Positions 54,950-56,754 of a stretch of 64,000 bases of DNA are shown here, one piece after another. The DNA is taken from the NCBI GenBank assembly GCA_024280835.1, contig JAJRPJ010000012.1:186001-250000 (forward strand), in the 5' to 3' direction. A model generated the notes under the pieces. The model made no database searches. It saw only the letters and a list, made by a program, of their open reading frames with translations, and was not told the origin of the DNA. Source of the stretch: Candidatus Zixiibacteriota bacterium (GTDB lineage Bacteria; Zixibacteria; MSB-5A5; GN15; JACZUZ01). How positions within the stretch are numbered: position 1 is the stretch's first letter; each line of letters opens with the position of its first letter. The translations under genes were made by a program, and so were the position numbers.

Positions 54950-55007
54950 GTTTCTTATCCAATGGTAATATGCAGTAGAAACCGACCAGAGAAAACGCAG
55001 GAAAACC

Positions 55008-55409
55008 ATGAACGCAAATCAAACAAGACCAGCAATTCAAAATCAACAGCAAACGCCACAATCTGGCTCGCGCACCACAGCTGGCTTCCCCTCGCCATCC
55101 GACGACTACTTGGAAACACCGCTCGACCTAAACCGCCTCCTAATCAAACGCCCAGCGGCGACCTTCTTCATGCGCGCCAGCGGCAATGCTCTACGAGAGG
55201 CAGGTATCAGAGACCATGACCTGCTGATTATCGACCGAGCCAGCCAAGTAACACACGGAGCAATCATAGTGGCGCTCGTCGATGGCGAACTACAACTACA
55301 ACGCTTCACAATGCGCCCACAACCCAACGCAGAAACCGACGACCTGCTATATGAGACTCCATATGAGATATGGGGAGTAGTGACTTGTGTCATCCGCGAA
55401 CTCAGCTAA
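55008..55409 (+). CDS. umuD: UmuD-like protein lacking the catalytic Ser and Lys
   Basis: 133 residues aligning end to end with E. coli UmuD from the cleavage region on: AG-FPSPSDDYLE (cleavage site Ala25-Gly26), LDLNRLLIKRPAATFFMRAS, DLLIIDRA and the final strand GVVTCVIRELS. In E. coli the catalytic serine (S60, ASGDSM) and lysine (K97, GEFTVKK) are required for self-cleavage. Here the matching positions are Ala61 (ASGNAL) and Gln98 (GELQLQR). The protein should therefore fold and dimerise but not cut itself or a partner. It precedes umuC with a 23-base overlap. Confidence 0.88.
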   Translation: MNANQTRPAIQNQQQTPQSGSRTTAGFPSPSDDYLETPLDLNRLLIKRPAATFFMRASGNALREAGIRDHDLLIIDRASQVTHGAIIVALVDGELQLQRFTMRPQPNAETDDLLYETPYEIWGVVTCVIRELS

Positions 55410-56754
55410 GAGAGCCCATAAGCCATTCGCGTTAGTCGATTGCGATAACTTCTATGTCTCCTGCGAACGAGTTTTTGCGCCCAAATTGCGCAACAGGCCA
55501 GTGGTCGTGCTCTCCAATAATGACGGCTGCATCATCTCACGCTCGGCCGAAGCCAAAGCCCTCGACATCAAAATGGGCGCCCCACTCCACCACATCACCG
55601 CACTCATCAAATCCGCCAATGTCGCAGTTTGCTCATCAAACTACGCGCTCTATGGCGACATGTCCGAACGCGTCAAACAAACCCTCAAACAATTCTCGCC
55701 AGAAATCGAAATGTACTCTATCGACGAAGCCTTCTTGCGTCTACCCGCCAATCCAGAACTAACTCTGTGCGCCTCTGACATTCACCAGCGCGTCTTGCGC
55801 TGGACTGGCATCCCAGTTTCAATCGGTATTGGCGAAACCAAAACCCTCGCCAAAGTCGCCAGCCGCATCGCCAAAACCAGCCCCAGCCGAGTTTGTAATG
55901 CCTTTGAACAAACATCTCTCGAACAAACATCGCTCGAACGAATAGACCGCGACAAATTACTCGCAGAAACGCCAGTAACTAAAATCTGGGGAATCGGCAA
56001 ACGCCACGGAACATGGCTCAAAGCACAAGGAATCACCACTGCCCTACAACTACGCGACATCAATGACGAACAAATCCGCCGCCGCGCAGGAGTCCTCGGC
56101 CTGCGCACTGTTTGGGAATTACGTGGCCGCTCATGCCTACCCTTAACCATGACTATCCCAACTCGCAAAGGCGTCACCTGCTCGCGCTCATTCGGACGAC
56201 GCACCCGTAACCGTGAACAATTACGCGAGGCCCTAGCCACCTATGCCGCACGTGTCGGCGAAAAAATACGACGTGACGGCTCAGCCGCAGGCGCCTTGAC
56301 CGTCTTCCTAATGACCAACCGGTTTTCCAATGAACCGCAATATTCCAAATCGGCGCTCCTAACCATCAACCCGCCTAGTGACGACGAAAAGACACTAATT
56401 CAACTGGCGCTTGCAGGCTTTGAACGCATTTACAACGCCAACTACCGCTACCAAAAGGCTGGTGTCACACTCACCGACCTCACCCCAATCAACGAAGTTC
56501 AAACCGACCTCTTCCCCCCCTCCCAAACATCAAGGGCGCCAGAGAAGCGCGAAACAAACACCACACAAAACGCCGCAGAACACAGCAAATCCCTCAGCCA
56601 CATCCTCGATTCACTAAACACCACCCACGGCGCTGGAACCATCCGCTACGCCGCCACTGGCATAGACAAACCCTGGCGCATGCGCTCCAACTACCGCTCC
56701 CCCTGCTACACAACCCACTGGTCCGACCTCCCCCTCATCCCAACTCTCTATTGA
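55387..56754 (+). CDS. umuC: DNA polymerase V catalytic subunit, Y-family
   Basis: A 455-residue error-prone polymerase for translesion synthesis. Metal-binding residues are in FALVDCDNFYVSCERVF and YSIDEAFLRL, with the VVVLSNNDGCIISRS finger typical of UmuC. A clamp-binding sequence QTDLF lies near residue 370, and the end carries the DUF4113-like tail (GTIRYAATGIDKPWRMR). The GTG start at 55387 overlaps umuD, implying translational coupling. All catalytic residues appear intact, unlike its UmuD partner. Confidence 0.93.
   Translation: MSSANSAKRAHKPFALVDCDNFYVSCERVFAPKLRNRPVVVLSNNDGCIISRSAEAKALDIKMGAPLHHITALIKSANVAVCSSNYALYGDMSERVKQTLKQFSPEIEMYSIDEAFLRLPANPELTLCASDIHQRVLRWTGIPVSIGIGETKTLAKVASRIAKTSPSRVCNAFEQTSLEQTSLERIDRDKLLAETPVTKIWGIGKRHGTWLKAQGITTALQLRDINDEQIRRRAGVLGLRTVWELRGRSCLPLTMTIPTRKGVTCSRSFGRRTRNREQLREALATYAARVGEKIRRDGSAAGALTVFLMTNRFSNEPQYSKSALLTINPPSDDEKTLIQLALAGFERIYNANYRYQKAGVTLTDLTPINEVQTDLFPPSQTSRAPEKRETNTTQNAAEHSKSLSHILDSLNTTHGAGTIRYAATGIDKPWRMRSNYRSPCYTTHWSDLPLIPTLY

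Follow-up and report, generated by a model that had tools for sequence, protein, structure and literature searches.

Can a polymerase V operate without the cleavage of UmuD, and would a umuDC operon lacking that step be an isolated accident? In textbooks, RecA-dependent cleavage of UmuD serves as the safety catch of the most mutagenic polymerase in bacteria. The question is raised by a locus in Candidatus Zixiibacteriota, in a window of 64,000 nucleotides (on contig C14; genome size 3.3 Mb, completeness 96%), where the initial annotation had noted a UmuD without its two catalytic residues next to an intact UmuC. The umuD homologue, catalytically inactive as judged by sequence, occupies positions 55008..55409 of the plus strand and encodes 133 amino acids from an ATG codon; a likely ribosome-binding site, AGGA (54999..55002, +), supports this start. 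The umuC gene (55387..56754, +; 455 amino acids) overlaps it by 23 bases, and a glutathione-peroxidase-like gene adjoins the pair divergently, a layout shared with a sister species of the same genus.

Comparison with E. coli UmuD leaves little doubt about the identity of the protein and about what it lacks. In phmmer alignments (UmuD chain of 8gmt, E=1.3e-23; UmuD′ structure 1umu, 3.4e-23) residues 22-106 match without gaps, giving an ungapped stretch of about 80 residues. In that stretch the nucleophile Ser60 is replaced by Ala61 (gct, 55188..55190, +) and the general base Lys97 by Gln98 (caa, 55299..55301, +), exactly as first proposed; the 8gmt chain itself has Ala at position 97, and UmuD′ 1umu shows Lys at the same position. 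The cleavage bond also reads as reported: Ala25-Gly26, an (Ala/Cys)-Gly pair, is retained at 55080..55085 (+) and followed by FPSP. The alignment had been described as gapless up to the final strand, which holds for residues 22-106 but not for the stretch between Lys97 and that strand, where the window UmuD is 7-8 residues shorter (23 residues counted, against 30 in E. coli and 18 in the sister species). The missing residues fall in a degenerate loop at about residues 102-120 (55311..55367, +), where intact UmuDs have LxPENDxYxPI and the window protein lacks the L107...N111...P segment. Finally, the N-terminal arm (residues 1-25; 55008..55082, +) is rich in Gln, Pro, Asn and Thr and is without the (F)PLF docking motif. 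The window protein shares with E. coli UmuD and UmuD′ the ungapped core, the fold, GFPSP, the final strand and the operon with umuC, but differs in having no Ser-Lys dyad, a shorter C-terminal loop and an arm without FPLF. Fold, sequence core and operon identify it as a UmuD, but without the dyad it does not qualify as a self-cleaving one; RecA-stimulated self-cleavage would not be expected of it.

Family models place the protein in the same way. Its match to Peptidase S24 (Pfam PF00717; 53.3 bits, gathering score 23.3) is uninformative on catalysis, and with 107.9 bits it falls just below the cut-off of 110 of the curated NCBIfam UmuD model. A UmuD from another genome (L044:1501-1896, G011), which has neither catalytic residue, scores above the cut-off of this "autoproteolytic subunit" model, so automatic annotation would mislabel it. 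HumD of phage P1 is a direct UmuD′. Like HumD and other genes encoding UmuD′ directly, the window gene would yield a UmuD′-like product without cutting; those proteins, however, have no arm, whereas the window UmuD keeps one of normal length (25 residues), albeit degenerate, and matches the HumD family NF051876 weakly (80.5 bits against a cut-off of 120). Some cyanobacteria have LexA variants without catalytic residues. These likewise contain an S24 domain incapable of self-cleavage, but they are repressors with a DNA-binding domain and not polymerase subunits.

The loss of the dyad is genuine. A base error at the two codons, raised as a possibility at the outset, is ruled out because the independently assembled genome of the sister species is also changed at both sites, with His and Arg in place of Ser and Lys. 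Both positions are altered in both species of the genus, with different replacing residues (Ala/Gln and His/Arg), and the two other members of the family (G002 and G003) have an intact dyad. A second conceivable escape is an active site that has shifted to another nucleophile and base. We regard it as scarcely credible: Ser58 and Arg99 are near in sequence, but Ser58 aligns with the unconserved Ser57 of E. coli, no other Ser/Lys pair was found, His and Arg occupy the dyad positions of the sister species, and the dead UmuDs of the phylum (those with one or both dyad residues lost) have no new residue in common. Nor is there a second UmuD in this 96%-complete genome. A search for S24-type proteins returned three matches, namely LexA (with both Ser and Lys), LepB and the window UmuD itself.

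This last result bears on the suggestion of the initial annotation that a LexA-like protein might cut the window UmuD in trans. In E. coli, UmuD S60A can indeed be cut by an active UmuD partner (PMC5342242), Ala25-Gly26 is kept in the window protein, and the LexA of the genome has its Ser and Lys. On the other hand, the genome offers no UmuD partner, only LexA and LepB; the arm, which would need to enter the active site of a partner, no longer has its docking motif and drifts between species; and other dead lineages of Zixiibacteriota have Val, Thr or Ile as the residue preceding the bond (P1). We therefore do not favour trans cleavage by LexA or a further S24 peptidase, which we consider very improbable.

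UmuC, by contrast with its partner's dyad, is intact, as the initial annotation stated. It has IMS, IMS_C and DUF4113 domains, the metal-ligand Asp of VDCDNFY (55438..55440, +), the catalytic Asp-Glu of YSIDEAF (55723..55728, +) and the β-clamp-type motif QTDLF (56500..56514, +), and between the two species of the genus its dN/dS is 0.12 (dN 0.149, dS 1.21). A second umuC without umuD lies beside an ankyrin-like gene at L054 and L055 (G036, G037), L011 and L024; the second copy in G037 contains an in-frame TAA.

Is umuD itself merely decaying toward loss? Several conserved positions are gone, and some dead lineages of the phylum have long UmuD branches. However, the frame is open in both species, the operon with umuC is kept, and the 76 codons of the core have a dN/dS of 0.14 (dN 0.146, dS 1.03), compared with 0.53 for the arm (dN 0.59, dS 1.11); for the part after the core dN is 0.40 and dS 1.15. 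With dS near 1 these are rough values, and the pattern was similar when the segment borders were changed. The core is under strong purifying selection, like UmuC, while the arm and the loop drift. Two other dead UmuD pairs of the phylum have core dN/dS values of 0.10 and 0.06 with a drifting loop. The arm of the g55 pair is more constrained (0.20), which leaves two of the three dead pairs with clear arm drift. In intact pairs the loop is constrained (0.12-0.25 where measurable). Together with a large class of Bacteroidota UmuDs that retains Ala/Arg at the dyad positions (see below), these observations make decay quite improbable. In an AlphaFold2 model built with 18 sequences, pLDDT is mostly >90 in the core (about residues 50-100 and 120-130) and <50 for residues 1-20 and 107-115. 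The best match among solved structures is E. coli UmuD′ 1ay9 (E 4e-8), followed by 8gmt, UmuD on RecA. This monomer model (pTM 0.61) backs the fold and says little about the arm beyond the low confidence.

The initial annotation had described a single protein with two substitutions. On sequence evidence, the case is wider: the whole proteolysis module is degenerate, and this has happened more than once among Zixiibacteriota and very extensively among Bacteroidota. The affected parts are the dyad, Met61, the C-terminal loop and the arm motif, joined in most other dead lineages by the P1 residue. One or both dyad residues are lost in 9 of 27 UmuD-bearing Zixiibacteriota genomes, representing 6 of 17 genera. 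Besides the window genus g1 (Ala/Gln and His/Arg), these are g55 (Ala/Gln and Ala/Gly), g28 (Ser lost or shifted, His at the Lys position), g30 (Ser kept, Ala at the Lys position, cleavage site gone), and g25 and g8 (Ser kept, Arg replacing Lys). A one-residue gap makes the residue at position 60 of L046 uncertain; L045, a relative, has Ala. The UmuC tree scatters the dead-UmuD lineages across the phylum and joins the window genus (G000/G001) to its sister G003, with its intact UmuD, at support 99/96. We read the tree as pointing to at least four independent losses, a reading and not a count because several of its deeper forks are weak. The conserved columns specifically lost in dead Zixiibacteriota UmuDs are A24, S60, M61, K97, L107 and N111, all six of which belong to the proteolysis module. 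Most dead lineages with a changed P1 still retain GFPSP, which may serve the fold. At one locus (L065 ~420-1080, G059) the open frames upstream of umuDC read as repeated APFMGAWIET / SRPSWARGLK units, which is what a CRISPR array might give when translated in more than one frame.

Outside the phylum, both dyad residues are present in 94 of 100 Pseudomonadota UmuDs; six are changed, and only one (L208, Ala/Gln) has lost both. Two of the six, L185 and L192, were apparently born as UmuD′, because their genes begin almost at the cleavage position (likely starts MAAFPSP and MGAFPSP); both have Arg for Lys97. The difference in frequency between Zixiibacteriota (9/27) and Pseudomonadota (6/100) gives a Fisher p of 0.0005 when relatedness is ignored, and the enrichment ceases to be special once Bacteroidota are counted. 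There, the 30 best-scoring UmuDs are all intact, including L311, which a script had flagged as altered through misalignment and which reads as intact (GHSM...TLKRL). Among lower-scoring ones (L331-L370), 29 of 40 are altered, 22 of the 29 being Ala/Arg, a proportion that is not a rate for the phylum because these 40 were picked for low score. Nearly all altered Bacteroidota UmuDs have Thr-Gly at the cleavage position, and Leu107 of the loop is mostly kept. Members of the Ala/Arg class (for example L363, L365 and L355) mostly adjoin umuC. They resemble the window UmuD in having a dead dyad and, mostly, an intact umuC beside it, but differ in Thr-Gly, in Leu107 and in forming one large class instead of a genus-level loss. 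An intact umuC lies right after umuD or within 0.6 kb of it at 13 of 15 altered Bacteroidota loci. When five Pseudomonadota loci are added (20 altered loci with flanks), a umuC frame comes directly after umuD or overlaps it at 16, although L388 among these has only an 81-residue piece; umuC is within 0.6 kb in two more, lies elsewhere on the other strand at L378, and was not found among the flanks of L374. In all sets taken together, 94 of 156 intact UmuDs carry the PxF arm motif, against 2 of 43 altered ones, a contrast inflated by relatedness, as the rows are not independent. The 80 best viral matches, from a scan that favours conserved sequences, are all intact. To our knowledge, the Ala/Arg, Thr-Gly class has not been described. 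We found no description of a natural dyad-less UmuD beside UmuC in the open-licence literature, and the passages seen of a paper on the Bacteroidetes SOS response make no mention of such UmuDs.

What would a UmuD of this kind do? Loss of catalysis alone restrains the E. coli polymerase: UmuD K97A, which has lost catalysis, holds UmuC at the membrane (PMC4552617), and S60A cuts UV mutagenesis (PMC3901139). The window protein, whose arm still has about 25 residues, could accordingly be fixed in the uncleaved state, binding UmuC and the replicase and acting only as a brake or checkpoint, with polymerase V off or non-mutagenic. We consider this unlikely, although less so than the other alternatives, since the arm is a drifting segment that is without the motif needed to hold it down and is predicted with low confidence, and the polymerase residues of UmuC are under strong selection. 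In our opinion, the window UmuD is probably a non-cleavable, UmuD′-like structural subunit, and its polymerase V would have no cleavage switch. The first suggestion that the normal switch would be missing here agrees with all the evidence that could be tested.

This preferred reading would work as follows. The Ser-Lys dyad, the residue beside Ser, the loop after Lys and the arm docking motif have been lost together, whereas strong selection maintains the core and the final strand. The arms would have ceased to fold onto the body, leaving the dimer in the UmuD′ conformation from birth and able to pair with UmuC at once. Such a state depends on the arms being free, because in E. coli the K97A and S60A losses of catalysis by themselves are restraining; it is the combination with loss of the arm motif that suggests a UmuD′-like subunit from birth. 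A precedent is the E. coli laboratory mutant UmuD3A (T14A L17A F18A). According to PMC5342242, which cites Beuning 2006, it is full-length and non-cleavable, and the failure of its arms to bind the body makes it a mimic of UmuD′. The window UmuD is likewise expected to be a non-cleavable UmuD′ mimic with full-length arms and lost docking residues, but it is natural and its dyad is gone as well, whereas UmuD3A has three arm substitutions only. The truncated UmuD 18 is also partly UmuD′-like (PMC5342242). Binding and activation of UmuC without processing would be consistent with the conserved core and UmuC. The retention of Ala-Gly and GFPSP in the genus counts against this reading.

In that case transcription, protein turnover and activation by RecA would control the mutagenic polymerase in place of UmuD self-cleavage; the polymerase may still depend on RecA filaments for its activation, though no longer for the cutting of UmuD. 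A candidate LexA site, TGCCCGAATGTGCA, lies before lexA (L001) near a TTGACA element, with the one-base variant TGCCCGAATGAGCA in the sister species (L007); presumably it resembles the Fibrobacter LexA box. Before umuD, no match stood clearly above shuffled sequence in dead genomes and hardly any did in intact ones, and the region upstream of recA gave no usable shared motif. Since there is no clear site before umuD, we make no claim of its SOS control.

Given repeated, coordinated losses in many Bacteroidota and several Zixiibacteriota, we lean towards the view that polymerase V free of self-cleavage is widespread, with mutagenic translesion synthesis in these lineages governed by other means than the proteolytic switch. 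Databases label dead UmuDs as an "autoproteolytic subunit", which is a warning for annotation. Natural umuDC operons without the catch, whose losses can be traced as a series, suggest that some lineages can dispense with cleavage, and they are ready material for asking what the cleavage of UmuD is for. With the same loss recurring in many other bacteria, the textbook UmuD switch is probably not universal.
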